From: Siphonodentalium dalli
Lineage: Eukaryota; Mollusca; Scaphopoda; Gadilida; Siphonodentaliidae
DNA length: 64,000 bases
Assembly: GCA_032622095.1 (NCBI GenBank)
Contig: CP136064.1
Location: 258,211,863 to 258,275,862 of the forward strand
Direction: 5' to 3'
Below the pieces are notes generated by a model that was not told where the DNA came from, searched no databases, and saw only the letters and a list, made by a program, of their open reading frames with translations. A program made the translations under genes and the position numbers. Each line of letters starts with the position of its first letter. Position 1 is the stretch's first letter. Positions 24,201-52,400 of this stretch are shown in pieces.

Positions 24201-27200
24201 AAAAATCAATCTATCAGAACAATTGCAACCAATCTATAGTCTCAAATTAACATTGTTTTATGTTACTTTTCCCCCCTTCTGTTCAGTTTCTATATCCCCT
24301 AATTTACAGAAGATAAAATGCATAATTGAGGTGACTAATGGGTGAACATCACTAACTTCGACTGGGGAACTTCAATCTGATCCTAGGTCTCCCATAGCAG
24401 TTGAGGCCTAAACAGAATGAGGTTTCCAGAGGGTGAATTTGGTGACATACATATTCACCCTCTGGGGACCTCATTATGCAAATGACAGACACCATTTCAA
24501 GGCTTGGTCTCTCTTCATCAGTTTGTCATGTTGTTTATATATTTTAAGGTCATATATAGGGAGATCGAGATTAGAGGTCCAGTGCCTAATGGGAAGCTCT
24601 CAGCGATGACATCAACCCTGTTCCAAGCTCAGAGTAAATGTGAGTATCTAAAAATCAAAGTAGCAGAAGGGAGGTAACTCTAAATCTGTGCTCAACAATG
24701 TTGATTCAGTATACTTTAATAGAACTACAAATTTTAGTTTCGAAATGCTGATATTTTTTACAGCTATCTGAAAGGTATCTGTCAAAAGAAGAGAGGTAAC
24801 TCTAAATATAGTATGTCAATATTTGCTCAACAATTTAACCCTTTCTGTTAAAAATACTCATTGAAGAGTAGTTCACTTTAGAAATGTTCAGATAAAAGTT
24901 CAACAAACGTGAATTGAACTTATTATCTAAACATTTCCCTCCAATTAACCCTTTACCCAACAGAAGGGCCCTGTGCCAATGCATTCTCTTATATATGCGA
25001 GTCGACCATAGGTCGCCTCGCATATATAAGAGAATGCATTGGCTTAACACATTAAAAATTATAAAATTGTTAAAGAATGTAAGAAAAAATGGTAAAAAGT
25101 GTTAAAAAAAGATTTTTTTTAGGCCAATGCATTCTCTTATATATGCGAGGCGACCTATGGTCGACTCGCATATATAAGAGAATGCATTGGCACAGGGCAT
25201 AACTGTAACTATCACAATGTGGTCAAGGAGCCGGTTCCAATGATATCCATATTTGTATGGTTCTATTGAGACAGACCGAAGATATTTTAGGCTGTTGCAG
25301 CTTTATTTGGCCGGTTTTGGCCGGTTTGTTGGGTAAAGGGTTAATGGGACTATTTCTTACTTGTAATATCTGTTGTCTGCTTCTTTTTCCTGAAAACCCC
25401 TCCAGATGAATAATAGACAATTCCAATGTATACTGTTTTAACTGAGTGGGAGAATCCATTTAGTAAAGAGAGGGTTAACTCCTGATCAACTTTCAATATG
25501 CCCTGTCATTAAATTGCGGCTATATTTGATCCACCAGGCCCTGTTCCGTGGTTTTAGTGCTACAGATCAAAGTTCTGGAGCAGCATTTCCATATATGGAG
25601 TTTTGAATTATTCATGAGTTCAATATACGGAAATGCTACTCCAGAACTTTGAAATGTAGCACTAAAACCATGGAACCGGGGCTGGTTGAATCTCTGAAAC
25701 CATGGAACGGAGCTGGATGACATCATTTTGTGGTTTGAACGAGACATATCCATTTAAATTTGCTCAGTTTTAAATGTGCACAATATCCTTATCACACAGA
25801 CGGCATGCCTTCTGGAAAAAACTTGTAGCTATTATTTTCAATAATATTGGTTCATTTTCAGATGAGGCTGTTCCGGTGCCTGTAAAAATCCCAACAGTCA
25901 AACCAGATATCAACAAGGCGAACCCGAAGCTCGGCGTCGGATTGTTAGCATTTAGTAATGACTGCAGATACATGTATAGTAGGAATGGTGAGTTCGTGGG
26001 TCGGATTGTTAACATTTAGTAATGACTGTAAATACATGTATAGTAGGAATGGTGAGTTCGGCGTCGGATTGTTAACATTTAGTAATGACTGCAGATACAT
26101 GTATAGTAGGAATGGTGAGTTCGGCATCGGATTGTTAACATTTAGTAATGACTGCAGATACATGTATAGTAGGAATGGTGAGTTTGGCATCGGATTGTTA
26201 ACATTTAGTAATGACTGTAGATACATGTATAGTAGGAATGGTGAGTTCGGCATCGGATTGTTAACATTTAGTAATGACTGCAGATACATGTATAGTAGGA
26301 ATGGTGAGTTCGGCATCGGATTGTTAACATTTAGTAATGACTGTAGATACATGTATAGTAGGAATGGTGAGTTCGGCATCGAATTGTTAACATTTAGTAA
26401 TGACTGCAGATACATGTATAGTAGGAATGGTGAGTTCAATTAACCTTCCACGACTGGATCTTCCTGAAATTTGGCAAAAGCCCTGTGCCAATGTATTCTC
26501 TTATATGTGCGAATCTCCCATAGGGAGCCTTGCATATATAAGAGGATAAATTGGCCAAACAATATTTACCTTGACCTTTTAAGCCAATGCATTTTCTTAT
26601 ATAATCTTTAATGCTGCACCATCACAGGGTTAACCCTATCGGTACCTAATTTCTGCCCTCTCTGAGCTGAGTGTTTCTGGTAATTTGCTCATGGTTAGCT
26701 TGGCACCGTGACGTTCTATGGTCGTTTGTTGAACTTTTTATCTAGCCTAATGGAACTACTCATCATTGAGTATTCAGTACAGAAAGGGTTATCCCAATTC
26801 CTTGTATCAGCAGATAGTATTCCCTCCCCTACATCAGAAACACTGAGTAAAATCATTGGTGAATTCCCTCCCCTACATCAGAAACACTGAATAAAATCAT
26901 TGGTGAATTCCCTCCCCTTCTGTTATTCCCGTTTTCAAAACTATTGTCCTACTAATGCGATAAAAATTTGGCAATGAGATTTACTACCACAAGATACAGG
27001 TCAAGTTCGATTTCTGATTCTGACTGCCAATTTTTACCACGGTTATGGCCTTTTATTGGAATTTGCACTCAATGTTTGTTTCCAGATGATAACTTCTGTA
27101 AATGTTAACTGAATGCAATGTAATTTGGTATGCTGGTTTACAACCATAAAATACAGGTCAAGTTTTATTTTGGGTTCCACCCGCTGAGTTACGAACTGTA

Positions 27201-30176
27201 ATGTAATATCCAATCCAGAGTATGGGACAAACATTTTCAGTAGCTTAATGTAGTTAATGTAGTTATTAATGTTCATGCTTTTTCACAGACAACATGCCGA
27301 CTGCCCTATGGATTTGGGACATGACGAAGTTGTCACTAAAGACTGTGCTACTACAAGTTGCTCCTATTAAATGTGAGTTCCTTCATCATATATATATCAG
27401 GTCTCATTGGATGAGGGGTCACTATTAAATGTGAGTTACTTCATCATATATCTATCAGGTCTCGTGGTGTGAGAGTCACTATTAAATGTGAGTTCCTTCA
27501 TCATATATCTATCGGGTCTCATGGGGTGAGAAGTCACTTTTTGTTAAATTTTAGAAATAAATTTATTTTATAGACCTGATCTTTTAAAGGGGTACTGTAC
27601 CCAAGATGTTGTTGTTGGTTTCTATAATCCCCGAGTCGGAGAATAAGGTAACAACTTTTCCATTATTTGAAAGTCTGTTGAGTACGAAGTAGTGTTACGG
27701 ATGGCAAATTTACCGGAATGCAAAATTACAAATTGTCGTTGTCGAGTAATTTTGTACAGTTTTCAACCAAATGAATCAAATAAAAATTATATTATATGCA
27801 TAGTAGTCCCATATACTCATTTAAGTTATTGTATCGTCACTAGTCAATGAGTGGCTTGAGTTTTCTCCCCGTATAAGCATAATGTTTCAAACGATCGTGT
27901 GTGCAATGGGTTTACTAATCCAGTATCCCTCAATTATAATTTGATTACGTTTTGTACACGGAAATTCGTATTTTAAATGACGCCATTTTATGGCTCCAGC
28001 CATAAATTCAATTTATATTAAATTATTAACTTTTAAATTATTAAAATTTAAGATAGCCTATTAACATGAGCGTTTACAGAATACATCTTCGACTCAAATT
28101 ACTTATGTTTCTATATAGTATCGATAATAGATCGTTGTTATCACCGGAAATTTATTGAAAATGGCGTACAGTACCCCTTTAAGTCACGCATACTTTCAGA
28201 TGTTAATGTGACTTATTCTGTGAATGAGAACTAATTTGCAGTACCAGGGTGAATTACATTCAAGATATTGTACGCTGATCTTCGTGCGCTAGTGTGCGAG
28301 GAACAAGCCTTATAATAGTCAGGGGCGCCGGAAGAGGGGGGGCAGCTGACCCCCCTGCCCTTGACCAAGGGGGGCGAGCAGGGGCAGGACTTGCCCTTTT
28401 TCTGGAGACACAAAATGCTTTTTGTGTGTTTAATCTCGTGTTTTTATAGCAAAATGTGACTTTTTTGGTCCAAATACCACCAATATCACAAGGAATATTA
28501 ATTTTTTGTCAATTTTATCACAAAACGGCCATAAAAACCGACAAATACCTTTAAAATAGGGATTTTTGCCACAATGAATTTATGGTTAAGTGCCCTTTTT
28601 GTAGGCTCTGCCCACCCTGCCCTTGGATGGTTCCGGCGCCCCTGATAATAGTGTGTCTGACATTTGCAGAATGAGGTCCCCAGAGGGTGACTTCAGAGAT
28701 GCTACCCTACAGTGGGCTAGCATCACTAAATTTACTCTCTATGGACCTCATTCTGCTTAGGCCTCATCTTCTGGGCTTCTGGGAAGTTTATATAGTTTTA
28801 GTTACTTTTTCCCTTCTGTTCAGTTTCTATATCCTCTAATTTGCAGAAGATAAATTGCATAATCAAGATGACTAATCGGTGAACATCACCAACAACTGGG
28901 GAACATCAATCTGATCATAGACCTCCCATAGTAGTTGAGGCATAAGCAGAATGAGGTCCCCAAAGGGTGAATTTGGTTATGATAGCCAGCTATGCAGGAT
29001 TGTGTCACTAAATTCACCCTCTGGAGACCTCATTCTGTAAATATCAGACACACTAAATTCAGACTTGGTTACGTATTTTACTGATATGTTTTTTTCTCAT
29101 CAGGTGCTGAGTGGGATCCCACCCAGACTCGACTGGCGTTGAGCACGGCAAATAATAAGCTCTACATGTGGTCTCCGAGTGGCTGTCTATCTGTTATAGT
29201 TCCCTCGGAAAGTAAGTTTCTATTAAATTTCATTTCTATTTGAAGGATCTATGTAGAATATGCTGCTAGTAACTCTTACTGTTTATTTCTGTAAATTCTG
29301 TTAGAATGATTTCAGGATCTGGTAGATGTTAAATCCGGGATTTAAATGTGTCTTTTCCCTCCTTATCACCCATGTTATCTCACATTCAACACTAAATATC
29401 AACACAAATCGAATATCATAATTATATTCTAATTAACAGAACTGAAAAAGTTCCGGCATTGACATCGACATGATTGTGCTAAGCTCTTATGTCACTGCGC
29501 ATGCCAATAATACACAGTGTCTAACTAAAAATATGAGACCAGGTTTAGGGGCTAATTAACCCTTTACCCAACAAAGCGGCCAAAAACGCCCAAATAAAGC
29601 TTCAACAGCCTAAAATATCTTCGGTCTGTCTCAATACCACCATACAAATATGGATATCATTGGAACCGGTTCATTGACCACATTGTGATGGTTACAGTTA
29701 TACCCTGTGCCAATGCATTCTCTTATATATGCGAGTCTACCATAGGTCGCCTCGCATATATAAGAGAATGCATTGGCCTAAAAAAAATCTTTTTTTAACA
29801 CTTTTTACCATTTTTTCTTACATTCTTTAACAATTTTATAATTTTTAATGTGTTAAGCCAATGCATTCTCTTATATATGCGAGGCGACCTATGGTCGACT
29901 CGCATATATAAGAGAATGCATTGGCACAGGGCCCTTCTGTTGGGCAAAGGGTTAAATGATAAATTATTTTCCATATGATGGGTTTGGAACTGCAAAGTAA
30001 CTGAGATTTTTATTATATATTTAATTGTTGATTTCAACCTTTCAGGTGCTTTTAACGTTCATTCACTGAAGTGGCATAAAGACGGCGATTCCGTGATATT
30101 ACTCGGGAAGGACCAGATGTGTGTGTGTTACCTGTCTGGTGAAAATAGTGAGCCGGAAGTGGACAGTGCTGCATGA
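21193..30176 (+). CDS. WRAP73: WRAP73 (WDR8) orthologue, 3' six exons, 5' part missing
   Basis: Spliced gene with exons 21193-21270, 24549-24639, 25862-25987, 27289-27372, 29104-29211 and 30046-30176, all with AG/GT borders and matching phases. They sum to 618 bp, 205 codons plus stop. The joined product aligns end to end with the C-terminal half of human WRAP73, a WD40-repeat protein of centriolar satellites and spindle poles that works with SSX2IP/MSD1 in microtubule anchoring. Telling matches are VRLLNNITWK, the VPVPVKIPTVKPDINKANPK block, MPTALWIWDM, AEWDPTQTRLAL, LYMWSPSGC and the terminal GDSVILLGKD. The exons for the first half of the protein (human residues 1 to about 250) were not found in the upstream 21 kb; they may lie in the 11570-11669 gap or the assembly may be wrong. 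Introns are filled with MITEs. Two exons run into tandem arrays of their own 5' splice sites. It converges on TPRG1L. Confidence 0.9.
21538..21620. promoter_or_regulatory. E-box cluster in WRAP73 intron
   Basis: Four CACGTG motifs within about 75 bp, including the palindrome CACGTGATCGATCACGTG and a GATCATCGGTCCGATC dyad between two of them; a CACATG also lies there. These match the core bound by bHLH-zip factors of the MITF/TFEB/USF/Myc type. Function is not shown, and the dyads may instead belong to a transposon. Confidence 0.35.
22825..22989 (-). pseudogene. THAP zinc-finger fragment, antisense in WRAP73 intron
   Basis: A 54-residue frame beginning MPYKCSVFGCG and continuing through LYSFPNDVRLRAIWRDF. 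This matches the start of a THAP domain: Met-Pro, the C-x4-C pair, the SFP motif and the invariant Trp. The second half of the domain (C-x2-H and the AVPTIF box) is absent, with a stop after TYTK and no clear donor. It is either a truncated copy of a THAP-bearing transposon (P-element/THAP9-like) or the first exon of a broken gene. Codons look undisturbed, so loss may be recent. Confidence 0.65.
23384..23405. promoter_or_regulatory. Palindrome with central CRE (TGACGTCA)
   Basis: CCTCGCTTGACGTCATGCGAGG is an interrupted palindrome whose centre is a full CREB/ATF site. It is about 400 bp upstream of the THAP fragment on its strand. A regulatory role is conjecture. Confidence 0.25.
23561..24024. 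mobile_element. Fold-back element family G, copy 1
   Basis: A 460-bp palindrome with arms of about 225 bp. Terminal TAAAGGTACTCAATCGGATT pairs with GATCGGATTGAGCGCCTTTA; the centre is a hairpin of ATAACTCTAAAA / TTTTAGAGTTAT arms around TTATTATTGTTAGTAATAA. Another copy lies at 44606-45028 and half a copy at 57786-58017. Confidence 0.85.
24233..24510. mobile_element. Fold-back element family E, partial copy
   Basis: Retains the family E spacer (TACAGAAGATAAAATGCA, GGTCTCCCATAGCAGTTGAG) and the right palindrome (about 24415-24480). The left palindrome is missing. It ends just before the WRAP73 exon at 24549. Confidence 0.7.
24549..24639 (+). CDS. WRAP73: WRAP73 exon
   Basis: Reads VIYREIEIRGPVPNGK and ends AQSK plus the first base of a Tyr codon. 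It aligns with human VVYKEAEKSP...ESKYE, the linker before the final WD repeats. Acceptor TATTTTAAG, donor AAAT/GTGAGT. Confidence 0.85.
24945..25344 (+). mobile_element. MITE family A, copy 3
   Basis: Complete copy with TTAA-flanked termini and two palindromes, inserted in the WRAP73 intron. Differs at only a few bases from 15141-15541. Confidence 0.9.
25539..25682. repeat. Fold-back element, about 145 bp
   Basis: Arms TTTTAGTGCTACA / TGTAGCACTAAAA, then CAAAGTTCTGGAG / CTCCAGAACTTTG, then GCATTTCC / GGAAATGC around an AT-rich loop. It lies 180 bp before a WRAP73 exon. Confidence 0.75.
25862..25987 (+). CDS. WRAP73: WRAP73 exon whose donor is tandemly amplified
   Basis: Encodes VPVPVKIPTVKPDINKANPK, then the LGVGLLAFSNDCRYMYSRN segment, matching human [26 protein letters not shown]. 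Acceptor TTCATTTTCAG, donor AGGAATG/GTGAGT. The last 49 bp and the donor are repeated seven more times downstream. This first copy keeps GCA (Ala) where later copies have ACA, so it is the ancestral one. Confidence 0.88.
25939..26439 (+). repeat. 63-bp array of exon end plus 5' splice site, 8 copies
   Basis: Unit starts at 25939, 26003, 26066, 26129, 26192, 26255, 26318 and 26381: first step 64 bp, all others 63 bp. Each unit contains 49 bp of exon end and the donor AATG/GTGAGTTC. GTGAGT occurs at 25988, 26052, 26115, 26178, 26241, 26304, 26367 and 26430. Reading on from the true exon meets TAG at 26017 in the second unit, so only the first donor is productive. Confidence 0.95.
26440..26634. 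mobile_element. MITE family C, copy
   Basis: Starts TTAACCTTCCACGACTGG and CTTCCTGAAATTTGGC and ends TTTAATGCTGCACC then CAGGGTTAA. The second hairpin is deleted to one arm. It abuts the splice-donor array. Confidence 0.75.
26818..26930. repeat. 55-bp tandem duplication
   Basis: Two full copies and a partial copy of a unit with TTCCCTCCCCTACATCAG and AACACTGA(A/G)TAAAATCATT. Confidence 0.85.
27289..27372 (+). CDS. WRAP73: WRAP73 exon with triplicated donor
   Basis: Reads (D)NMPTALWIWDMTKLSLK then TVLLQVAPIK, matching human NIPNAVWVWDIQKLRLF. Acceptor CTTTTTCACAG, donor AAAT/GTGAGT. The exon end and donor recur twice downstream. Confidence 0.9.
27361..27535 (+). repeat. 57-58-bp array of exon end plus 5' splice site, 3 copies
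   Basis: Units share CTATTAAATGTGAGTT and TTCATCATATATATATCAGG-type sequence. GTGAGT lies at 27373, 27431 and 27488. Only the last nine bases of the exon are in the unit. Reading past the first donor meets a TAA in CTATTAAATG of the second unit. Confidence 0.9.
27588..28178. mobile_element. TTAA-flanked MITE (piggyBac-like)
   Basis: Inverted ends AGGGGTACTGTAC and GTACAGTACCCCT are each bordered by TTAA. Length 591 bp, non-coding. The TTAA duplication suggests mobilisation by a piggyBac-type transposase. Confidence 0.75.
28320..28644. mobile_element. hAT-like MITE with perfect 8-bp duplication
   Basis: Termini CAGGGGCGCCGGAA and TTCCGGCGCCCCTG are flanked by ATAATAGT on both sides (28312-28319 and 28645-28652). 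An 8-bp duplication with CAGGG-type ends is characteristic of hAT elements. Confidence 0.85.
28665..29048. mobile_element. Fold-back element family E, complete copy
   Basis: Two palindromes (about 28673-28760 and 28950-29038) with the family spacer between them. It follows the hAT MITE and ends 55 bp before a WRAP73 exon. Confidence 0.8.
29104..29211 (+). CDS. WRAP73: WRAP73 exon
   Basis: Reads (C)AEWDPTQTRLALSTANNK then LYMWSPSGCLSVIVPSE, matching human [20 protein letters not shown] with LWSPAGCMSVQVP. Acceptor TTCTCATCAG, donor GAAA/GTAAGT. This is a core WD repeat. Confidence 0.92.
29556..29955 (-). mobile_element. MITE family A, copy 4
   Basis: Complete inverted copy in the last WRAP73 intron, with TTAA-flanked ends and two palindromes, ending 90 bp before the last exon. 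Confidence 0.88.
30046..30176 (+). CDS. WRAP73: WRAP73 terminal exon
   Basis: Reads (S)AFNVHSLKWHKDGDSVIL then LGKDQMCVCYLSG and a short acidic tail ending DSAA before TGA at 30174. It matches human [20 protein letters not shown]; the human tail is a little longer. Acceptor TTTCAACCTTTCAG. No AATAAA is visible close to the stop; one at 30946 lies in a MITE. Confidence 0.9.
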
Positions 30177-30447
30177 AGTGTTCATCATTTACATCACAAT
30201 CACATTTACATCCTCATCACATTTACATTATCATCACACTTACATTTACATTTGAGACTACCACCCATCTTTTTTCTGAGCCCTATGCTTGATTCTGCTT
30301 GTCTCGATTCTAACTACATAAATGGATCCCGTTTACAGCGAAATTCAACAATTTAGTCATTCTACTTCATATTCATTTTCTAAATCAATAGAATTAATTG
30401 ATAAGCTCACTATAAAGATCACTGGGGGTAACATAATTCATTCCCAT

Positions 30448-30663
30448 ACAGTAATGCTCTTAAGTAATCGACCCCTTAACCACAGCAAAATTATGGGTAA
30501 CTTTTCAGGATTTAGTCGGAAATATGGCTTGTTGCCATTCATCGGAAAGCTTTCAGGGAGAGCTTTCCGATGAATGGCAACAGGCCATATTTCCGACTAA
30601 ATCCTGAAAAGTTACCCATAACTCTGCTGTGGTTAAGGAGTCGATTACTTAGAGCATTACTGT
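30448..30663. mobile_element. Fold-back element family F, copy 2
   Basis: Near-perfect palindrome of about 215 bp with ACAGTAATGC and GCATTACTGT ends; the loop is a few bases around CAGGGAGAG. Lies 270 bp downstream of the WRAP73 stop. Confidence 0.88.
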
Positions 30664-30878
30664 ATATGCCATACAGTAACTAGTTCGGGACTATATTATC
30701 TCTGCCACCAGGCTGTTGTATGGCAATCTCGCCGAAAAATAATGTGTCTGTGAAATACACTAAATATAATCCCTGTTATTTGATTAAATTAACTGTATAC
30801 AATGTTGTTTTTATCCAAAATAGTTCATGTATTCCTTATTTTAGATTCTTAACTGGATCCAGGATTTCATGTCTTTTT

Positions 30879-31291
30879 TTTTACTGTATACACCCATCAG
30901 TAAGCCCATCCTCGAAGATAAGCCCTGTCTGGGTCTTTTACTCATAATAAAACATGGGGTGGTCCTCGTAGATAAGCCCACCCCCATTTTTGAGCATTTG
31001 GAAAGTGAATACAATTATGTCTTCCTATCCTGAAGAATTGGAGAAGATACTTAAGCACTGTTTCTGGTTATTATCATGTGATTTTATCTTCTTATTAATA
31101 TAAATAAAACACATTATTATCTTTATTCAATACAAAAATATGTTATTGGTATAAAACATGATGGTAGGTCGACACCTGAAGGCTAACTGAATTTTTTGCA
31201 TGTGGAGTCCTCGTGAGTAAGCCCAGTACCCACTTTTCCGGTAAATATGTGCACAAACCCAAGGCTTACTGACTGGTATATACAGTAAAAC
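30879..31291. mobile_element. MITE with TTTACTGTATAYACC termini
   Basis: Inverted ends of about 28 bp (TTTACTGTATACACC and ATCAGTAAGCC on the left, inverse on the right), with further AAGCCC(A/C) repeats inside. A plus-strand AATAAA at 30946 might serve as WRAP73 poly(A) signal, which is speculative. Confidence 0.65.
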
Positions 31292-31467
31292 GAGATTGCA
31301 ATCTCAGAAAGTTTGAAAATCCGTCAATCTTCTTATCTGATTCATTGGCAATGCATTGTATATGATCTATGAGATTTGTTTATTGTTTGCATTTCAACGC
31401 ATGTGGTGTTTTACAACCATTGGTTTCCATATAAAATATGAATTGTCTTCCATAAATGGAAGCTCTA

Positions 31468-31728
31468 TGTCACAAACTTGGCACATGTATGTAAGCAGCT
31501 CACAAACAAGGCAATCGTCACATGTATGTAAACAGATCACAAACATGGCAAACGCCACATGTATATTAATTAGCACACTCACAAACATGGCACACGTCAC
31601 ATGTATGTAAACAGCTCACAAACATGACACACGTCACATGTATGTTAGCAACTCACAAACATGGCACACGTCACATGTATGTAAACAGCTCACAAACATG
31701 ACACACGTCACATGTATGTAAACAGCTC
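31468..31728. repeat. About 37-bp tandem repeat, 6-7 copies
   Basis: Unit contains CACATGTATGTAAACAGCTC and ACAAACATGGCACACGT. Open frames on both strands here derive from the array. Confidence 0.85.
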
Positions 31729-31805
31729 AGTTGCATTAAGTATTCCCCAATTTCCAACTTGTCATTTATGAAGCATCCATCTAAATGGGCTTTAATCCCA
31801 TGTTC

Positions 31806-31864
31806 AGGATAGCATCATTAAGTTCACCCTCTGGGGACCTCATTCCACAAATGTGAGACACACC
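31806..31864. mobile_element. Family E fragment
   Basis: One palindrome arm (AGTTCACCCTCTGGGGACCT) plus the outer end (AAATGTGAGACACACC). Confidence 0.65.
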
Positions 31865-33900
31865 ATGTCCATGACTCCATATTCATACATTCCAAACAAG
31901 ATTTGTTCAGATATCACTTTTTTTTATAAATATTGAATCAAATTTCCATCCAAACTTACTGATGTTATTTATTATATTTATAATAAAATGTTGACAAAAG
32001 TTCACCAAGTATCATTACACATGGCAGATACATGTATGGGTTACTGATTCATATACATATCCTTGAAGGTCATTTATTCCAAGAAATCCCACAAGGTCTG
32101 AAGCCAGAAACCGACATGAGGGGCTGAAGGGTACAAATTTCTGACAAGTTTTTGACGAAATTTACAGATGTAAATAACTTCACGGTAACAAATTAACTCC
32201 AGTCTAATTCAAATCAGACTCTTATAAACAAGATACGAATTACTGAGTCTAAACGATTTCACTATCAATCATATTACCGCCACTATAAATAGCTTATGCA
32301 TGCAATCCTTGCATTATGACATCACAGTGCACAAATAGTTTTACAATTTCGCAAATAACTAAACCGGGTGTCAATAACTTGAAATTCTATTCTCGTTGCA
32401 AGGTATTTAATATTGGTAAATTTTGGACCCCTTTGACAGAGCATGCGCAATTTGAAGTTTTGAGTTTGAGTCATCTGGCACGTCGTATAAAACAGCGTTC
32501 TGCCAGAGACGTGCTGAATCTTGGACGTAACGTCGTCAATATACATTGAAGGTAATGGTACAGTATGAAGTACTATGGGGATATGCATGTATTGACTGAC
32601 AAAGGACGTTTCACGAAATTTCGGAATAAATATATTGCAAAGATATATACGAAGGTTCAAAGGTAATGAATGACACGATCCAGATTTTTAAAACAACAAA
32701 CCCGTTTCCGAGATTTATGCACAGTATATTAGAAGTATAAATAAAGACACAATGAGGGCCAGTTTATAGTGCATTGTCAGATGACACTATCATGGCATAT
32801 TTTCGTGAACTTCCCAAGGGAAATGATTATTGCAGATGGCATTTTGTATCAGAAATGCTAAAATTGTTTGAAATATACGATTACGGCATGTGCCAGCTGG
32901 CTTGACATATAAATAAAATAACGTAGCACATGCCAGATGCGCCAATGTCAAGCCAAGCGAAGATAGCACGACCCATGTCTGGCGTGACGTATAAAACGGG
33001 CCTAAGAATTTTGAAATTGGTTAATCTTAATTTGAGTTGTAAAGCTGGACAAACCAAAATTGCAATTTTTTTTACAAACTAAGGTCGATAAACGGAGACA
33101 AATTGAAAATGCAAACAATGCCATTTGGCATTCATTTGAAAGCATTCATTATGGCAAACATCCACACCAAATTTCATTCAGATCCAACAACCCATGGATG
33201 GGATATGTGCTTTGAGCAGACAAAAAGAAATGATTTCCAGATAAACAAAGAAGGATAACTTTTAACATGAAAAAAAGTGACGTGCATGCACGTTTATTTG
33301 GAATACTTGAGTAGAGGGGGTGCTTATTCTAGTCGACTCGAACCCTATTACTATGCCATCAACTGGCCTGCCCAGACCAAGTCTTCTTGGTCCACAAGAG
33401 CTTGGGATATTGGTTGTGATGATGCAGTTTTGGATCGAGTCCCCTCCCATTAATCTTCTATAACAGACTTTACATCCAGAATCAAGGGCATGAGTTATCT
33501 TGCTTGTATGTCTTTGGACTAAGTCAAATGGATGCTTTGCATATATGAACAGAGGGCAGCCATTTCCAAGCATGATAATATCAAACATGCATATATCAGA
33601 GATCTGTTAAATGTCAAAGAAACAAGATTTATTAGTAAACAAAGCCTTGTTTTCCAGAGAAATTTGATTGTCGCGCTATCAGAAAATGCATGTAAATAAT
33701 ACATTAAATGATCGTATCATCACTTTACAATTTTCTACCGAGGTAAATGATATATAATTTTGAAGAGGGATTAATTGTGGACATGTCAGCTGATTAATCA
33801 CATTCAGGGGTTTATGTGAATGCCCAGGCTTCACATGTATATGTAGTGCGTCTTTGGAATGAAAGTCCGTTATAAAAGAGCAATGGGGCAGGACATTATG
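31865..33900. other. Convergent intergenic region, no gene recognised
   Basis: Between WRAP73 and TPRG1L. AT-rich sequence without a recognised gene. Around 32880-33000 there are inverted GCATGTGCCAG / ACATGCCAGA and CATGTCTGGCGTGACG motifs, possibly a decayed hairpin element. Short open frames at 32316-32660 and 33262-33921 lack domains. Confidence 0.4.
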
Positions 33901-34373
33901 ATATTTAACACTAACTATCAAATGATAACTGGCCTCCCCTGCTGAAGTGTGATGGAATATTAAATAGACATATTCAGTATTTAACGCTGGTAGTTTTAAT
34001 GATAGCTGGCCTCCCCTGCTGAAGTGTGATGGAATATTAAATAGACATATTCAGTATTTAACGCTGATAGTTTTAATGATAGCTGGCCTCCCCTGCTGAA
34101 GTGTGATGGAATAATTAAATGGACATTACGGTATAGCTGGCCTCCCCTGCTGATGTGTGGTGGAATATTAAATGGACATTACGGTATTCAACGCTATGAT
34201 AGTTTTAATGATAGCTGGCTTCCCCTAACACTATAACTATAAAATGATAGCTGGCCTCCCCTGCTGAAGTGTGATGGAATATTAAATAGACATTATGGTA
34301 TAGCTGGCCTCCCCTGCTGAAGTGTGGTGTAATATTAAATGGACATTACGGTATTCAACGCTATGATAGTTTA
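33901..34373. repeat. Minisatellite, unit about 60-85 bp, about 7 copies
   Basis: Units share GATAGCTGGCCTCCCCTGCT and GAAGTGTGATGGAATATTAA, with variable spacing between. Confidence 0.9.
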
Positions 34374-34588
34374 ATGATAAATGTTAAACAATCAGCAAGA
34401 ACAAACAGAATAAATAAACATTTTACACACAACAGTTCTCATTGTATCACATATATTAAGGTTCATCTTTCTCAGGGAGAACATGCTCTTGAGACAGGGA
34501 CCCGCCCCGAGGTTTCAAATTGGGAGAAGTCACTTCTCCCTGTTTGGTTATCAGGGAGAAATGAACTGTTATCGGAGAAGTAACAATG

Positions 34589-34709
34589 ACTGAAGTTCAA
34601 TTTACACCCCAACATCACTCATTCTATGATCCATTAAGTATTATGCAAGACAAGAGCCCATCTATATAACCATTATAGTGAGTACAACATCACTATAATC
34701 AGTAAATTT
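34589..34709. repeat. 121-bp direct repeat, left copy
   Basis: Almost identical to 35091-35211 (GAAGTTCAATTTACACCCCA ... CACTATAATCAGTAAA). The two copies flank a family B MITE. Related copies exist at 41240-42050 (split by a hAT MITE) and inverted at about 52745-52870. Confidence 0.9.
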
Positions 34710-35090
34710 GACCCGCTATATCAAATCCAGTCGTAAGTCGGGATTTTTTTACCCTGTGCCAATGCATTCTCTTATATATGCGAGTCGACCATAGGTCGCC
34801 TCGCATATATAAGAGAATGCATTGGCCTAACAATTTTTTACAATTTTAATAAATTTTTCTTGTATTCTTTAACAATTTTATAATTTTACCCATACAGAGC
34901 CCCAGACACACTTGAGTTCTATATGCTTCTATATATGTGTGGGGCTCCCTGCAGGGTAATGGATGTTTTTTATTTTATGTCCTAAAAATTGTTAGGCCAA
35001 TGCATTCTCTTATATATGCGAGGCGACCTATGGTCGACTCGCATATATAAGAGAATGCATTAGCACAGGGTAAAAAAATCCCGACTTACG
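34710..35090 (+). mobile_element. MITE family B, right end missing
   Basis: Left end TTTGACCCGCTATATC, two cassette palindromes (about 34757-34827 and 34994-35064), then the sequence breaks at CCCGACTTACGACTG, where the family normally continues with GATTTGATATGGCGGGTC; instead the 121-bp repeat resumes. Confidence 0.85.
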
Positions 35091-35211
35091 ACTGAAGTTC
35101 AATTTACACCCCAACATCACTCATTCTATGATCCATTAAGTATTATGCAAGACAAGAGCCCATCTATATAACCATTATAGTGAGTACAACATCACTATAA
35201 TCAGTAAATAT
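35091..35211. repeat. 121-bp direct repeat, right copy
   Basis: Second copy of 34589-34709, joined to the truncated MITE at the shared GACTG. Confidence 0.9.
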
Positions 35212-35771
35212 GCTGTTTGGACATATGCATACTGGTATATGAGAGGTCACTTCTCCCTTGAACAAAAAATCGGAGAAATTGCCATTTTAGGGAGAAGATG
35301 TCTCCCCAAAGTCGCCATCTGGGCTGGTCACTGTCTTGAGACATGCAAACAAACAAAATGTGTCAACTGCAACCTCACTAAACATGGACATATCATCTTA
35401 GTTTCCTTTTATTGATTGTGACATATACCCCACAATCAGTGCTAAATGATGGGCACATAATTAACAAGTATATTAACCTAACAGAATGAAAATAGGTGTT
35501 CAACGATTGGAAGTGAAAATGCATGTATTAGTAGTTTTGCAAGAAAACCTGTGTTTTTCGGGGGAAAACTACTCCATCCTTAGAAAACTGCTAACAGATA
35601 CCTCAACATGAACATAACATAACCAGGGCACAGCAAATCTTGAATATTCACTTTTTTATCAAAACATTTCAGAATTGTGCATGACAATGACTATTAAAAT
35701 TTATATAAAATCAAATATAATATCATACAGTTTAAAACAGTTTGTCATAAATGAAAGAAACATGCATGGTT
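35212..35771. other. No gene recognised
   Basis: AT-rich intergenic DNA with GGGAGAAG / CTTCTCCC motifs at 35245-35320 that belong to the dispersed repeat flanking the family B copy. Confidence 0.4.
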
Positions 35772-36771: not shown

Positions 36772-36807
36772 TATACCTGGCTATAAAAAATAGTTGAGAT
36801 GTTTATA

Positions 36808-41189: not shown

Positions 41190-41309
41190 GAGAGAAATAA
41201 GCTCTAGAAATAAGTGGACTGTTATCAGAGAGAAGTAACAATGGCTGAAATTCAATTTACATCCCAACATCACCCTTCTATTATCCAATAAGTATTATGC
41301 AACATAAAG

Positions 41310-41987
41310 CAGGGTTTCCGCTAGGGGTAGGGGAATGGGGCCGGTAGCCGTCAAGGGGAAAAATCCAGGTAAAAGTAGCCTGTTTTACTTTTAGCACTGG
41401 TTGAACTACTTTTGTTATATCGGCCAATAGAATCGTGTGAGAGTAGAAACAGCAGATTGTTTTGTTCCATTTCTGCCCAAGTGCCAAGCTATCAAACCTT
41501 ATACATGTACATGTAACTTTAAAACTAGTAAATTTATTAGATATATATTAATTTACGAAGTACATGTACAGAAAACCAGTAATTTTAATCCCGAGTTAAA
41601 CGTGCTCGTTAATGTTAAAAGACTCACTGTGGAAGACACAGCAGATGTTTCGGATGCATAACGTAATCGGAATATATTAAGGCTGATTACATACAACCGC
41701 AACGTAACTAACCGACCTCAAAGGCATAGCTCCTAGCGATGTCAGTTCTGATCACTTCCTGTTTCAATTTAACAACGCGTTTAGAGTGTACACTCACAAG
41801 ATATAAAATAAATTCACCTTTTAAAATTCCTTAGTACTATAATCTATTCCAACAAAATTCAGAAGTTTTAAACATCTTTATACCTTTATAGACATGCAGT
41901 ATGTCCTGGGGTATGGCAGGAGGGGAAAACTTGGCGAGGGGAACGGGGCCGTCAAGGGGACCCTGTGCCGGTATAGCGGAAACCCTG
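41310..41987. mobile_element. hAT-like MITE in the 121-bp repeat
   Basis: Termini CAGGGTTTCCGCTA and TAGCGGAAACCCTG are flanked by CATAAAG on both sides (41303-41309, 41988-41994). Subterminal GGCCGTCAAGGGGA-type sequence occurs at both ends. It splits a copy of the dispersed repeat seen at 34589. Confidence 0.8.
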
Positions 41988-42188
41988 CATAAAGAGCCCA
42001 TTTATAAAAACATTAGTGAGTAAGAACATCACTATAATCAGTAAATCAGAGAAGCCACTTCTCCCTAGAACAAAATAGGGAGAAGTGGCACATATTAGGG
42101 AGAAGATGTCTCCCAAGTCGCCCTCTAAGCTGATTCTTGCAACATTATTTTCCATCATACATTGAGGATAATTCATGCTATAAACATT

Positions 42189-42497
42189 AACCCTTTGAGT
42201 GCCACGGGCCGATCTCATCGGCCCTAATTTACGGTGTGTAAAATCGGGGTTGAATTTTTTTCGGGTATGCTTAAGCATGCTATAGCGAATTTAAAAACAA
42301 ACTGGATAACACCTTAGGGGCATGTTATAACTCATTAAAATTGTAAAAAATAATAACAAAAGATGAAAAATTGTTAGGCCAATGCATTCTCTTATATATG
42401 CGAGGCGACCTATGGTCGACTCGCATATATAAGAGAATGCATTGGTACAGGGTATATGGGTTGATACAAAAATTGGACCTGGCACTGAAAGGGTTAA
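42189..42497. mobile_element. MITE family D (single cassette hairpin, TTAACCCTTTGAGTGCCA ends)
   Basis: Inverted ends TTAACCCTTTGAGTGCCA and TGGCACTGAAAGGGTTAA surround unrelated sequence plus one intact cassette palindrome (about 42379-42446) with the TTGTTAGGCCAATGC approach sequence. The only copy of this terminus type in the window. A GGGCCGATCTCATCGGCCC hairpin lies near the left end. Confidence 0.8.
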
Positions 42498-42642
42498 ACA
42501 CATTACTAAATACAACATTGTTATAGTGAGAGACCCTGAATATTGATGACAAATATGTCCTTGTTTTTATATTTACCTTTATGTTGTCAGTCAATATAAA
42601 ATGTACAGAAATTTTATATCAATGAGCTCGGAAAAGCTTCAG

Positions 42643-43008
42643 TGGGCTAGCATAACTAAATTCACCCTCAGGGGACCTCATTCTGCTTAGGCCTCATCTT
42701 CTCTGGAAAGTATCTTCATTATCAAATTAACAAGTTTTTTTTAGAAACTTCTTTAGAAAGTTTCTTTTTCTTTTTTAGTTTTGTTTCCTTATATCCCCAA
42801 ATTGGCAGACGACACAATGCATAATCGAGGTGCCCAATGGGTGCAATTCACTATCTTCACCATCTGGGAACTTAAATCTGTGTCTGGGTCTCCCATAGCA
42901 GATGAGGCCATGCAGAATAAGGTCCCCAGATGCATTTGGTGAGGCTAGCCTGTTGTGCAGGGTAGCGTCACTAAATTCACCCTCTGGGGACCTGACTCTG
43001 CAAATTAT
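42643..43008. mobile_element. Fold-back element family E, degraded copy
   Basis: Left hairpin reduced to one arm; right palindrome partly intact (about 42910-43000). The inter-hairpin spacer is recognisable. Confidence 0.7.
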
Positions 43009-43722
43009 ATACATGTAGTTGGAGAGGTATGGGTTGGCTCTTCTTCCTATGCCACCACCAGCAGATATTCCATGATGAAAAGGTCCTAAAGGATGAAGAG
43101 ATCGGGTTCTAGCATGTCCCATAAGTGACGCAAAAAGGGTCAAGTTACTACAAATTAGGCAGCTGGTTCAATTGAGACAAGAACCAGTCTACTACATGAA
43201 AATCAGCAACGACAGTCCTACCAGTATGATGTACATGTATTTCGCGGATGTAAAAAAAAAAATTTAAAATAAGTTTCTCAAAGTATGCACCATGAATGAA
43301 CATTGCTATCTAAGCTGTCGTATGAAGTTGTTGTGATTATCTGGTCTGTTTAACCCTTTCCATAATAAATACTCATTGACGAGTAGTTCCCTTAATAAAT
43401 GTTCAGAAAATAAGTTTGTTGAACTTATAATCTAAACATTACCCACCAATAGATAAGAATCCTTCGGAACTTGTATTATGTCATCGACTTCAATTTTATG
43501 AGCATGAGATGAATAACAGACCATTTCAATGCATATTTTTATAACTGAATGAAAAAATCCTATGCATTTTCTAATGTTGAATAGACTGGTTCCAAGTCCA
43601 ATACTGCAAAAATATCAAATAGTAGTAACCTGACCCTCTTAATATGAGGGACAGCCCATTACCTGCATAGTGCTCAGTAATACAGACTTTCTACTAGCCG
43701 GACTAGTGTGTGCATCGAGAGA
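43009..43722. other. TPRG1L 3' flank
   Basis: Presumed 3' UTR and downstream region of TPRG1L on the minus strand. I did not identify a convincing minus-strand AATAAA. Confidence 0.35.
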
Positions 43723-44068
43723 TCAGTAACATATCCCATTTCTGTCTTTAAAGTACCCCAAGCTACTCTGATTGAAAATCATCGCTCCGAAACTTGCGTA
43801 GCTTTCGATCTCAATCGGACCCTCGACCGCGCTCAATTTCTCCCCGGGTCGTTTCTTCTTCCAGTTTTTTGTGACAGCTTGCACGAGAGATTCGTAGAAG
43901 TCATCGACGTTATACAATGTGGTCTCATTTTCTTTAGGATTGTAAAGTAGCGGGTGGTGGACCAGGGTAATCCATGGAATGTCGGAACACCATGGGTTCC
44001 ATTTCTGACCAAACGATAGCTCTGCTCCTTTGTTCCACTTTAACTGGATTCCTCCGTGCTGTCGCTCT
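43723..44068 (-). CDS. TPRG1L: TPRG1L terminal exon
   Basis: Begins after TGTATTTTAG and reads ERQHGGIQLKWNKGAEL, then FGQKWNPWCSDIPWITLVHH, and ends SLGYFKDRNGICY. Human counterpart: [32 protein letters not shown] and LGYSMTRGKIGF. Most of the conserved C-terminal domain is here. Confidence 0.92.
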
Positions 44069-46451
44069 CTAAAATACAACATTAAAGTAGCATTTATATG
44101 GCTGTGTTAGTTCATTGCAGTGACACAACCTGTTGTCTGCGTTAAACCATATTAATGCAGAGCTTCCGATTGTAACTGATATGTTAAATATTGGAATAGA
44201 TGCAAATGTTGCAAATCAATTTGTTAAAACAAATTTCATGATAATGCTAAACCTGTCAAATTCTAACACCAGATTTTGCTAAACCTGTCAAATTCTAACA
44301 CCAGACTTTGCATTTTGATGGGACCCCCATATCAGTCCTGCGTGTAGCATTTGCAGGGCTTTCTTAGGCATTTAATTTTTTATTACTTGGTTTACGAATT
44401 TCCCTACCTGAAAAAAAGCTGTTTGTCAATAAAAATAAAATTTTAGTTTTCGTTTTTTTTATTTCCGCCAATGGGAATATTAATCCAGAAATATAAACGA
44501 GAGGCCGATCACGATCGGCAGATGTTTAACCCATACCTTGGCGATAACGATTAGCTATTTTCATAAATCCTTACACCAACCTTTTCAACAATTCACATCT
44601 TACTATTAAAGCTACTCGATCCGATTAAGCACCCCTCAGTTACGTTTTATTTGACTTCGGGGGTAAAAAATATTTTATTCAAATCGAGGAACCCATTCCT
44701 CAAAGCTCAGAATAAGCAGATATCAATTTTTAAAATCTATTATCTTTAACCACCTGGAATATTTAGTGGCCGTATGAAAGTTGATGAAGATGGATAACTC
44801 TAAAATCAAGTGTTTTTTTTGTGTCAGATATATGACAAAGTAGCAAAATTTCATTGTACAAAATGTTGATAAATAACAGATTTTGGGCAATTTTATACTA
44901 GTGGACTGTGGTTAGCATTATTTTTGGGCAATTAATTGACTCTGATAACAGAAGCGGAATTTCAAAAAAACTGTTGTTGTTGGAATCTGATGATATGGGG
45001 ACCATCAAATCGGATTGAGTACCTTTAAGTTCACAAGTGGCATAAGACTTATTGGGCACCTTCCATATGAACATGGATATGGCATTTGATTCCAACCTAT
45101 TAAGTCAGTTTAAAATAGATATATAGTCTTATAGAGCTCAGTCCATAGTCAGGCAGAAGAACCATACATAACAGTTAAAGATAAACTATTTTAAAAATTT
45201 TGTAAAATATGATTGATAATGATTGGATATAACATACTTTAATGCATAATTATGAGATAACTAGAGGTCACCAGGGATATGAGATTGAAGATATTAGATT
45301 TATTACATTGGATAGCATACTGTATGTCTATGGAATGGGTGGGTTAATTTTGATAATATTTTAAAGCAATTAAACCAAATGACCCTCTCTGTACAGGTTA
45401 ACCGTTAGGGGTGGTGTGTTATCATAAACTATGACTTGAAATATAATATAATCAATGACAAATATTTGAGTTATTAAATGAGATAGCAAGGGGTTGATCG
45501 TAATCACACTAATGAACTGATAAAAATAGTCTATAAATGCATGTATATGGATTTAGAAGCCCACACAATAAGTCAGTCTCAAGAATACAAGCAACATAAT
45601 TATTATCCTGCACCCCAAACGCAATAGAGGGAATTTCAAAATAAGACATTTCCTCTAATGTTTTTAGAAATCCTTACTGAACCTGGCTCAAAGTGAAAGA
45701 TATAATTTAATATCTGCCTATCAGATATCATGTGTCTATGGAATGGGTTAATATTAATCCCAAAAAAGAGCTATGTTGGAGTTGATAAATCCTGAGAAGT
45801 CACTGTCCACACACTATGGAAATTCAATAAACAACAGATAGCTATTAAAGTGCAGCAGTGAGTATCAGATTTCATTACCACGTATCAATAATAGAGATTA
45901 TCTCTAGTCTCTCTTTACTGATACCTCAGTTGGAAGCTGCCACAGTTATTTCTTGTAAGCAAATCTCAAATCTGTTCAATTCTTAGTTAAAAGGGGCCAT
46001 AATTCTGGTATAAAAAACAGGATCTGACCCATATTCAAACTAGATCTGTATTTTGAGTTGATAAACTCGCATACCAAATTTGGTTCTTATCAGTTGAAAA
46101 ATGGTTGATTCATCAAAATATGCAGAAATTCTATATCAAAGGGCCATAACTCCTTTAAAAAATATCGGATCAAACCCATATTCGAACTCGATCTGTATTT
46201 TGGTCCGAGAAACTTACATACCAAATTTGATTCTGAACAGATATTTTTTTTTTTGAGTTATGGTAGCTATGAATGAATTCTAAGTCGAAAAAGGGCCATA
46301 ACTCCGTAATAAAAACTCGGATCGGACCCATATTCGAACTTGATCTGTCTTTTATGCTGAGAAATTCAACTACAAAATTTGGTTCCGATCAGATATAAAA
46401 TGTTCGAGTTATCGCACCATGCGTAAAGTGTCTACAGACAGACAGCCAGCC

Positions 46452-46483
<32 letters not shown>

Positions 46484-49400
46484 GGACGGACAGACTAACG
46501 ACGAGTGGTCAATCCGGACAACGACACTATGTTTACCATACTATGGTATGGGTAAACATAAAAAATGAGAAAAAAGTAGAAGTTTACATAAAATATATAA
46601 CAACATCGATTGAACAGCGAAGCATCCCGGTGATGTTTATGGTACTGAATGTTAATGCCAACATGGCAGGTGCTGATATTGGCGATATTTTTTCATCTAT
46701 CCGTATCATGCTTTAAAGAAACATCCAAATAAAAATATATATTTGCCCATGCTTGTTTTAGATGAGATTATTACACAGCAAATATTTTTTTCTCCAGACC
46801 CTATTTATTGATAATTTAAATTAAAAAAAAATAATACAGATTGTTTTCCTCCCACCTTCCCTACCTTTGAGCCATAATAATCCGTAAACCAAGTAATAAC
46901 AAATTAAATGCCTTACAAGCCCTATGAAGCCTAGTGGTAAACTTAAAACAATTGATATATTCACAACTGGACAAACTTCTCTGTTCAAATAGTACTTAGA
47001 AATGTGTAATTTGCTGAATTTGTGATTATTACATTTTATTATTTCAATCAACTTTTTTATTTAGTATGCCTGCAACACTGATACAATGTTCAGAAGTATA
47101 TGTCTTTGATAGTACCACAATTTATCTTCATTTCTATAATATGGAAGTTTTAAGTACTTCCCAGATCACATGTTCCTTGAATCAGACTGACTATTGGCAA
47201 TTTTCCCCAACAGTAAGATACATGTAATTCAGCAATTTTATATTCCATATTAAATTCAGCTCCATGAAGGCCCCCGATATAGGAAACACCTGGGCATGGG
47301 CCTTATTTCAGGCCCCGCTGCAAATGGTGTTCTATAATTTGCAGAATGAGGTCCTCAGAGAGTTGGTGATGTTCACCCATTATAGTCACCTCGATTATGA
47401 ATGTTATCTGTAACCAATTAGGGGATATAGAAACTGAACAGACGGGGAAAAGTAACTAAAAAGAATGTTAATTTGAGACTAGAGATACCTCCCAGAAGAT
47501 GAAGCCTAAGCAGAATGATGCATCGCTAAATTCACCCTCTGGGGACCTCATTCTACAAATGACAGTAAGACTCTATGCCGGCTTGGGCCGTGTGCCGTGT
47601 ATAAGATGCAATGCCTGCAACAACTGCCTTTACTGGATCATTACTCTCATAAATTGAGTCAAATTCCCTTCACAGACTAACCTGCCATCTTCAATCAATT
47701 GAAAATAAGTAACGATATAATGAATGTGCTTAATTGCCATATTAGACATGTGTTTGGGCTTGACTTGAGTTGAAAATAGTACCTCTCTGTTAGGTGTATT
47801 AATGGATACAGCATAACGGAGATATCGCAGCCGCCTGAACAACTTAGTGGTATTGCCTGTTAGTGCTGGGCGGTATTTTGGTATACGGATTAAAATCGGT
47901 CAATTTTGTTTTTAACAGGTACACCAAACTCGTAGTTTAGTCGCAGTTTGCGTGAATTTTTTAAAGGTAAAACCACATATTACCGCTCAACAATGACTAG
48001 TCAAGGCGAATTTGATTGTTTTGCTCTGCGTAAACTAAATTTTTATAATATTTATTACAATTTGAGCAATAACGTTCCCCACATTTAAATGCTGTGCGGT
48101 TCTGTCTATGTATACATATTAGGTGTCTTGTATACAACATCGATTCGCCAGTCACATTCAGATTATGAGTGACTGAGATCGGCAATTCATGTACTAATAG
48201 TTAACTGCTTTCCTTCATGTTTAATAATCCCAGATTATCAAGACCAAGCCTTGAAATAGTGTGTCTGTCATTTGCAGAATGAGGTCCCCAGAGGGTGAAT
48301 TTAGTGATGCTACCCCGCATAGTGGGCTAGCATCACCAAATTCACCCTCTGGGGACCTCATTCTGCAAATGACAGACACCCTATTTCAAGGCTTGATTAA
48401 GACTCTATTCATGCATGAATGATAATTCCCATGATAATCCTTGGACCAAGTGAGAATTCAAGTGACTTGAAGTGAGAATTCCTAATAACATAGTAATTTC
48501 AAAGCTCATCCTAAGCACCATTTGCAATTTGTGTCTGGTATATATACCATTTTTCGATTCCAATTTTGTACCTGGAACAAATTTTTGCCATCTGAAGAGA
48601 TTTGTTCGGGATATATTTAAGAGATTAGCTTCACCTAAAGAGGTGGAGCAAATCTGTTTTTACTAAGTACAACTAGAGGCACCATACAAAAAATATACAT
48701 CATTTGGTAGCAATGACAATATAGGTTGATAAATATACAAAATATCATTATACAGACTCTATATATGGGTGAAAAATCAACTACAATACATCCAACCAAA
48801 CTCGTAATCACAAAATTACATACATTGCTAAATATTTTTAAGTCAAAAAGGGGGATAACTTTACTGAAAAAGGTTGGACGGATCTCATAATTGCAGGAGC
48901 ACAGGTTTCGATATTAAATGGTCAATAATTTTGCTGTTTCAAAAACATTACCGTTATCCATAAATGAAGTAATAAAATTAGGACTAATTTACAGGGTTGC
49001 AAAAAAATTGAAAACTTGAAATAGGGCAATAACACCACTAAAAAATTTGGATGGACCTCATAATCGGAAAAACTGATGTCCACGGACGGATGGAAGGACA
49101 TGGTGATTCCAAATATACCCCCCCCACCATAAATTTGTTAGAGGCAGGGAGGGGGGCATTATGAAAAGCGATTTCACATGCAAATAAAGCAAACACAAAC
49201 ATATATGGTAGAACCTGGTAATTTTAGATAATGATTTGATACTCACGGCATAACGGAATAATGAGGATACTTCACTTCAGATCACCAACATATGTGGTAG
49301 AGCTGGGTAATTTTAGATAATGATTTGATACTCACGGCATAACGGAATAATGAGGATACTTCACTTCAGATCACCAACATATGTGGTAGAGCCGGGTAAT

Positions 49401-52400
49401 ATAAGATAATGATTTGATACTCACGGCATAACGGAATAATGAGGATACTTCACTTCAGATCACCAACATATGTGGTAGAGCCGGGTAATATAAGATAATG
49501 ATTTGATACTCACGGCATAACGGAATAATGAGGATACTTCACTTCAGATCACCAACATATGTGGTAGAGCCGGGTAATATAAGATAATGATTTGATACTC
49601 ACGGCATAACGGAATAATGAGGATACTTCACTTCAGATCACCAACATATGTGGTAGAGCCGGGTAATATAAGATAATGATTTGATACTCACGGCATAACG
49701 GAATAATGAGGATACTTCACTTCAGATCACCAACATATGTGGTAGAGCCGGGTAATATAAGATAATGATTTGATACTCACGGCATAACGGAATAATGAGG
49801 ATCACCAACATATGTGGTAGAGCCGGGTAATTTTAGATAATGATTTGATACTCACGGCATAACGGAATACTGAGGATACTTCAGATCGCCAACATTGATG
49901 ACGTCGAGAATATGATGAAAAATTCTTTTGAACTCCTGAACTTTCTTGTTTATGAAGTTGAATTTGTAAATTAGTAGACTATTGTCCATCAGGAGTACAA
50001 TTTTCTCATGCTCACAATCCCAGTGGTCAATTCTAAAAAGAATGAATAACACAATTTAAGACATATTATGGACTTGTTCGGATGCGTGAAACTGACAAGT
50101 TAGTACTCAGATGCTATGCCAACTGGGAGAATTTAGTAATCTACTAACATCGCCGAAAATCTCAAGCAAATCGACCGCACCACTCCATACAAAACATCAT
50201 CTGAACTACAATGTAGGCTCAATTGTAAATAGTTACTTCTTGATTCGAGATGCAACTATCTGCATTAAACTAACAAAAAGATTTCGCCATCGAGAGTCAC
50301 TATATTTAAATAATATATATAAGAATGACGGTGTCTGTTGTCAATTTGGATAAAACACTTGTAAAAATAAATGCTTTGAAAAAGATTATTCTCCATTCTA
50401 CTTTCACGTCACTTTAATGTATTTTCAAAATAATAAAATATTTTAACATTTAATAGCTCCTCCAGGCAAGACATAATGAAATCCAAGGCCACTGTGAATA
50501 AAAACAAAGGTGCAAGTTTAAATAATAATAATAAGGTCACAAATAATAAGGTCACAACTTGGTGTGAGATTTGAACTGCGAACAACCCAACAGCACATGT
50601 TGTTAATCCGACCAAACCACGGTTGGGAGAGACTCAATAATCCACTGATGTGTTGACAGCGAAGACAAGTCCGACACTCTGATCACGGAGCACCCCCAAG
50701 TTTGGGCCATTTGAAAAAGCATTGGGCCATTTATTTATTGAGCAATGTAAATAAGAGCAAGCCTTGAAATAGGGTGTCTGTCATTTGCAGAATGAGGTCC
50801 CAAGAGGGTGAATTTAGTGATGCTACCCCGCATGAGGTGTAAGCAGAATGAGGTCCCCAGAGGGTGAATGTGGTGATGCTAGCCCGCTATGCGGGGTAGC
50901 ATCACTAAATTCACCCTCTGGGGACCTCATTCTGCAAATGACAGACAACGTATTTCAAGGCTTGAATAAGCTTGATTAAAATGATTTTCATAAAAAGGTC
51001 CATTTCTATTGATAACACTATGACTGAATATCTGATCTGCTTGATGATGTGGGGAAATAATAGAATTACTTTGAAATACACTCCATTTTGTTTTGAAATT
51101 CTACAGCATAGAACAAATTTTAATCAAGAACGGGACATTTAAAGGCACGGATGGCCTTTGTGGTGGATATGCTGTTAAAATAGTCACACCTGTTAAAACT
51201 GAGATAAACAGAAAGATTATTAAAATATAGACGTATTTTGTTCTTATACCAATTATAAATATCACGTAAATACCGGCAGTATGTTATCAATTTTCAAGTT
51301 AGTAAGCTGTGTTACAAATATGTAAACAAAAGCTAGGTTGTGTAACATTTTTGGCTTTCATTTACATAACAAAGTGTACAAACTTGACAACTAACATACT
51401 ATTTACGTGATATTTATGATTGGTATAAGAACAGTCTGTCTATATTTTAATATTCTTCCTGTTTCTGGCAGTTTTAACGGATGTAACAGCAAAACCCACT
51501 CAGAAGGCCATCCGTCCTGTTAACTATTGAGAACAGGATGTAGCACAGAACTACATTCAAGTGATTACAGTGAGAATAGCTGACATATTGTGACTGAGTT
51601 ATTGTCACATGCCTCAAATCCAATCACTACATGTAACAATAGGGATTTGATTGTCACCTGCCAGACAACAGTTTATATCTGTCATTACAGCCTTTTAAAT
51701 TCTCTTAATTTCGGCACACTGCGGTAGACCTGTGAGAAAAAACTTTTAATTTTACTTCAAGAGACTTAATTTATTCTCTTCTGCGGGCAGGGACCAGCCT
51801 AGAGGGCGACTTGGGAGGCAGGGACCAGCCTAGCGGGTGACTTGGGAGGCAGTGACCCGCCTAGACGGCAACATGGGAGGCAGGGACCAGCCTAGAGGGT
51901 GACTTGGGAGGCAGGGATCAGTATAGAGGGCAACATGGGAGGCAGGGACCAGCCTAGAGGGTCACTTGGGAGGCAGGGACCAGCCTAGAGGGCGACTGGG
52001 GAGGCAGGGACCAGCCTAAAGGGCAACATGGGAGGCAGGGACCAGCCTAGAGGGTGACTTGAGAGGCAGGGACCAGCCTAGAGGGTGACTTGGGAGTCAG
52101 GGACCAGCATAGAAGGCGACTTGGGAGGCAGGGACCAGCCTATAGGGCGACTTGGGAGGCAGGGACCAGCCTAGAGGGTGACTTGGTGAGACAGGGACCA
52201 GCCTAGAGGGCGACTTGATAGGCAGGGACCAGCCTAGAGGGTGACTTGGGAGGCAGGGACCAGCCTAGACGGTGACTTGGGAGGCAGGGACCAGCCTAGA
52301 GGGCGACTTGGGTGGCAGGGACCAGCCTAGAGGGCGACTTGGGAGGCAGGGACCAGCCTAGAGGGTGACTTGGAAGATACGGACCTGCCTAGAGGGTGAC

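Follow-up and report, generated by a model that had tools for sequence, protein, structure and literature searches.

Tandem arrays repeating the 5' splice sites of WRAP73 and TPRG1L exons in Siphonodentalium dalli are probably ordinary minisatellites across exon-intron borders

Three exons of two adjacent genes in a 64,000-nucleotide stretch of the Siphonodentalium dalli genome (hereafter, the window) each run into a tandem array of their own 5' splice site, which raises the question of whether donor sequences seed such duplications, whether the extra donors are selected, or whether repeats have arisen across these borders by chance. Tandem Repeats Finder (TRF) returned 34 rows of tandem repeats for the window, among them three donor-crossing arrays (A, B, and C) in which 9-57 bp of exon tail, together with the 5' splice site, is repeated in tandem into the intron, in two exons of WRAP73 and one of TPRG1L. 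The exons were located by tblastn with human WRAP73 and TPRG1L sequences, together with their reading frames. WRAP73 encodes a WD40 protein, and its exon A (25862..25987, + strand) is open up to the first donor, with its conserved coding end at 25987. Array A (25931..26437, + strand; 8.0 copies) has a 63-bp unit that consists of the last 57 exon bases (25931-25987) plus GTGAGT, only ~6-8 bp being intronic, and its donors lie at 25988, 26052, 26115, 26178, 26241, 26304, 26367, and 26430. WRAP73 exon B (27289..27372, + strand) leads into array B (27364..27538, + strand; 3.0 copies of 57 bp by TRF), whose 57-58-bp unit combines 9 exon bases with ~49 intron bases and places donors at 27373, 27431, and 27488. 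TPRG1L exon C (49856..50032, - strand), exon 3 of the initial annotation, is followed by array C (49194..49883, - strand). Its unit of 89 bp has an exonic share of ~28-38 bp; TRF gave 6.8 copies to 49802 and then longer-period rows to 49883, with donors (+ coordinates) at 49855, 49780, 49691, 49602, 49513, 49424, 49335, and 49246.

TRF and the donor positions thus agree with the initial annotation on three arrays of 8, 3, and 8 donors, and its view that they have one architecture in common is supported. GTGAGT is intact in every unit (8/8, 3/3, and 8/8 copies), and comparison of the units with each other revealed nothing shared beyond a single 7-bp match, in line with the claim that they are unrelated in sequence. 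Other details needed amendment. The unit lengths first given (63, 57-58, and 89 bp) hold except for the first step, which is 64 bp in A, followed by steps of 63 bp, and 75 bp in C, followed by steps of 89 bp; the range given for the exonic share, 9-49 bp, accommodates B and C but not the 57 bp of A. Of nine internal donors counted originally, we placed six by eye in the two genes (four in WRAP73, two in TPRG1L), and tblastn with human WRAP73 found no N-terminal exons of this gene in the window. Once the first donor is taken as the functional one, expansion confined to the intron, as initially stated, is true by definition.

Arrays of period at least 20 cover 8.4% of the window. One further minisatellite (51786-52407; 20 copies of 31 bp) occupies the TPRG1L intron before exon C and recurs in the second genomic copy described below (L002). 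A dispersed palindromic element of ~70-85 bp, found at 24975-25043, at 25123-25191, and elsewhere, resembles a miniature inverted-repeat element; the window contains its 20-base core word 17 times on the + strand and 21 times on the - strand.

When the genome (2.2 Gb in 9 contigs) was searched at the DNA level, the WRAP73-TPRG1L region was located twice on one contig, at C4:257296176 and C4:258237724, the latter being window position 25862. The second copy, 941.5 kb upstream, contains the TPRG1L exon and is 99.1% identical to the window over 23684-26311 and 97.6% identical over 49903-52295. It also has all three arrays (L001), with 6, 4, and 4 donors in A, B, and C versus 8, 3, and 8 in the window. 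Since both copies hold all arrays with differing copy numbers, the arrays are older than the split between the copies, and their lengths have changed since. The two copies could be alleles assembled side by side or the products of a recent duplication; other sampled exons form six pairs of close copies, 37-325 kb apart and with ~91-99% identity across the main aligned segments, which hints at retained haplotypes or recent local duplications in the assembly. The presence of the region twice, perhaps as retained haplotypes, makes local mistakes possible, and single-copy donors might have been falsely multiplied. We regard such an artifact as extremely improbable, because all three arrays occur in both copies, differ in copy number between them, and contain unit-specific substitutions, and because similar arrays occur at unrelated loci.

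The two region copies also reveal how the units differ within an array. In array A, the exon copy reads TTAGCA, and the other copies (seven in the window and five in the sister array) read TTAACA; in array C, a 5-bp insertion found in 6/7 extra copies in the window and 3/3 in the sister is absent from the exon copy. The inner copies of A and C are therefore homogenized and the boundary copy is left out, as in the amphioxus arrays known as mirages. That the exon copy of A is distinct in both genomic copies is as expected if the coding copy lies outside the exchange.

Within the window, all 16 extra donors (7 + 2 + 7) introduce at least one stop. This regularity underlies the initial claim that only the exon-proximal donor keeps the frame and favors the proposal that selection maintains the extra donors as decoys or as an NMD-coupled switch, in which splicing from a distal donor would introduce a stop and reduce expression. 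The claim is correct for the window but does not extend to the sister copy, where array A advances by exactly 63 bp at each step and extra donors 2-6 (5/5) are in frame with no stop, so that each in-frame extra donor would add 21 residues. The proximal-only frame of array A in the window is thus an accident of a single extra base. Unit lengths are also divisible by three in 6 of 13 arrays judged by eye (A, L015, L018, L025, L119, and L137), near the 1/3 expected, which likewise speaks against a switch. Finally, among the internal copies of the seven arrays with enough copies (first and last copies excluded), variable columns are as frequent in the donor hexamer (7/42) as in the flanks (25/140; P = 1), i.e., the decoy donors are conserved no better than their surroundings. 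Two apparent signs of conservation were discarded: the lower mismatch frequency of extra donors (15/558 versus 260/3,542) was an array-edge effect, and the shortage of variable donor columns (8/78 versus 61/260 in the flanks; P = 0.010) vanished once the first and last copies were removed. We therefore consider a selected switch very improbable.

How often donors lie within arrays elsewhere in this genome was estimated from exons of five unrelated protein families (myosin, chaperonin, adaptin, MCM, and kinesin). From the match lists, 149 exons were picked by hand, leaving out long single-frame matches, near-duplicates, and many weaker matches, and 140 of them were fetched with flanks, the last nine kinesin exons being dropped. 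A site was scored as crossed if a TRF array (one setting) of period at least 20 extended at least 5 bp to either side of it. Donors were called for 128 of the 140 exons; the 12 others (L020, L049, L055, L079, L093, L102, L110, L111, L115, L116, L142, and L143) have no array of period at least 20 at the match end. Acceptors were called for 137 (L029, L057, and L078 left out). Six donors were set by hand (L015, L018, L060, L087, L108, and L122); for L122, the candidates all fall within its array but the precise donor is uncertain, and the automatic calls for L137 and L139 landed on a later copy. All crossing cases, 10 at donors and three at acceptors, were checked by eye, and the automatic scoring of L108 as crossed proved wrong on this reading and was corrected. 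Matches to the Sec1 family were kept out of the sample. The search for this family gave seven matches, three of which (C7:58679437, C7:116182668, and C1:237383657) are full length, each in one open frame of 578-686 codons, and look like intronless retrocopies.

In this sample, 10/128 donors are crossed (7.8%; 95% confidence interval [CI], 3.8-13.9%), namely, those of L015, L018, L025, L071, L074, L085, L119, L122, L137, and L139. Intronic points +60 to +540 bp past the donor give a mean crossing rate of 8.2%, or 5.8% (0.8-9.4% by offset) when donor-crossing arrays are subtracted. At the other end of the intron, 3/137 acceptors (L040, L048, and L082) and 4.2% of points 60-340 bp upstream of acceptors are crossed; at exon midpoints, the count is 1/140. 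Intron points near donors are thus about twice as array covered as those near acceptors (8.2% versus 4.2%), partly owing to the donor-crossing arrays themselves (5.8% without them). Crossing is about as frequent at donors as in the adjoining intron, and the sample shows no clear donor excess.

These figures bear on the initial suggestion that GTGAGT borders seed tandem duplication, e.g., where R-loops form or forks stall at the ends of exons, which would enrich arrays at 5' splice sites. Several observations favor it: three of six to nine window donors carry arrays, above the sampled rate; arrays cross donors at a higher rate than acceptors (unadjusted Fisher P = 0.045, with the intronic background differing between the two ends too); and the donor rate of 7.8% exceeds the strict background of 5.8%. 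This rate is not above that of unfiltered intronic points, however, the strict background falls within the CI for donors, and arrays cross acceptors as well. Because donor rate and intronic background are so similar, the sample offers no good evidence for seeding, which we judge improbable. A rate equal to background could also reflect seeding balanced by purging. As for the contention that three arrays among nine internal donors are hard to explain by random minisatellite birth, the probability of at least three at the 10/128 rate is 0.028 for nine donors and 0.008 for six, values uncorrected for the selection of a finding that was chosen for standing out. The same-gene clustering of arrays, with two pairs among the 10, is not significant (permutation P = 0.12). 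The initial annotation had proposed a genome-wide frequency scan against controls and 3' splice sites; the comparison made here covers the sampled exons of the five families.

Genome-wide counts of word triplets at array spacing were also inspected and then set aside as a test of seeding, with mixed results. GGTGAGT triplets outnumber those of the reversed control (11,530 versus 7,166, overlapping matches), as seeding would have it, whereas AGGTAAGT triplets do not (2,410 versus 2,622 for the reversed word). Among the GGTGAGT matches listed, most come from a single satellite at C1:5.918-5.923 Mb. Since such overlapping counts are weighted by a few long satellites, the position profile around splice sites was used as the main evidence instead.

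Donor arrays elsewhere in the genome vary widely in length. The longest belongs to a kinesin gene (L139 and L155; C2:63733000-63735973, - strand), where the exon end plus the donor is repeated ~41 times in 34-bp units over ~1.4 kb, with the exact donor word in 34 copies. Exact-match donors number 13, 10, and 13 in another kinesin exon (L137) and two close copies of it. Across 13 arrays, GT is kept in 87/93 non-first copies. Only one close pair (L085 and L146) among the 14 related myosin exons viewed has a donor-crossing array, and such arrays therefore seem to come and go. The three acceptor arrays are mirror images, in which a pyrimidine-rich tract, AG, and the exon start are repeated upstream of the real exon in ~4 (L048), ~6 (L082), and ~2 (L040) copies.

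We conclude, with a probability of roughly 0.8, that arrays A, B, and C are ordinary minisatellites that arose by chance across exon-intron borders and are tolerated there. A tandem duplication across the border would copy the exon tail together with the 5' splice site and create two identical donors; slippage or unequal exchange would then alter the copy number and homogenize the inner copies but leave the coding copy distinct. Splicing would normally pick the 5'-most donor and leave the protein unchanged, and the extra copies, being intronic and near-neutral if the first donor is used, would be free to expand, contract, and homogenize. Five observations form the basis of this reading: the architecture of the arrays, the difference in copy number between the two genomic copies, the similarity of the inner copies next to a distinct exon copy, a sampled rate near that of the intronic background, and the arrays at acceptors. 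We infer the use of the first donor from protein conservation, and the neutrality of the extra copies and the mutational process are likewise inferred.

Mirages are reportedly described in Canestro 2002, and internal duplication is said to be treated in Gao and Lynch 2009. In amphioxus, mirages are minisatellites spanning exon-intron boundaries in Adh3, troponin C, and the globin genes BflGb6 and BflGb9, with similar imperfect repeats in PGBD5 and with six versus three copies of the BflGb6 mirage between haplotypes (PMC3087553, PMC3902484); regular splicing was apparently undisturbed in the authors' RT-PCR (PMC3087553). The S. dalli arrays are similar in that units straddle the boundary, AG/GT signals persist in many copies, repeats occur at 5' as well as 3' boundaries, and, in A and C, homogenized inner copies coexist with a distinct boundary copy. 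Copy number here differs between two genomic copies that may be either alleles or duplicates. The arrays differ from mirages in that one of them reaches ~41 copies and in the comparison with a sampled intronic background, for which the mirage literature at hand yielded no counterpart. With regard to the host, a search for the molluscan hemocyanin domain PF14830 gave no match, a result that does not by itself establish absence.

Two other systems are related. In paralogs from human segmental duplications, internal tandem repeats vary, also at exon-intron boundaries, where they can change splicing; coding exons hold half of the variable repeats, and new introns can arise from repeats at boundaries (PMC2812944). 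Minisatellite expansion at exon-intron boundaries is the common element, but the arrays described here cross the border into an existing intron. Tandem duplications that copy a splice signal are likewise reported to make a new intron (PMC4974935, PMC3443670), and a splice signal is copied by tandem duplication here too, with the difference that duplication has multiplied an intron's donor. Our search of the literature, with few subscription journals within reach, found no genome-wide rate for boundary-spanning arrays. What is new here is the base rate, the very long donor arrays, and the lack of detectable purging of identical decoys, and the individual arrays look ordinary for a repeat-rich animal genome.

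The rate matters because, in the sample, arrays are about as frequent at donors as at nearby points of the intron, and identical extra donors therefore seem to be tolerated, as the initial annotation had considered and as far as sequence can say. It is possible, and we propose it tentatively, that the first of many identical donors is chosen so reliably that arrays of up to ~40 copies cause no detectable fitness loss, with about 1 in 13 donors lying in arrays. Reporters with duplicated donors reportedly often favor the intron-proximal copy, which would be the opposite of what these genes need. The arrays thus raise the question of how splicing chooses the first of many identical signals, and their range of 2 to ~41 copies, along with alternative copy numbers within one assembly, provides a series for testing the choice among identical 5' splice sites. 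If this proposal is true, the genome would hold a natural, genome-wide set of duplicated-5'-splice-site constructs, and use of later donors could add in-frame 21-residue repeats in some of them, such as the sister WRAP73 array A.
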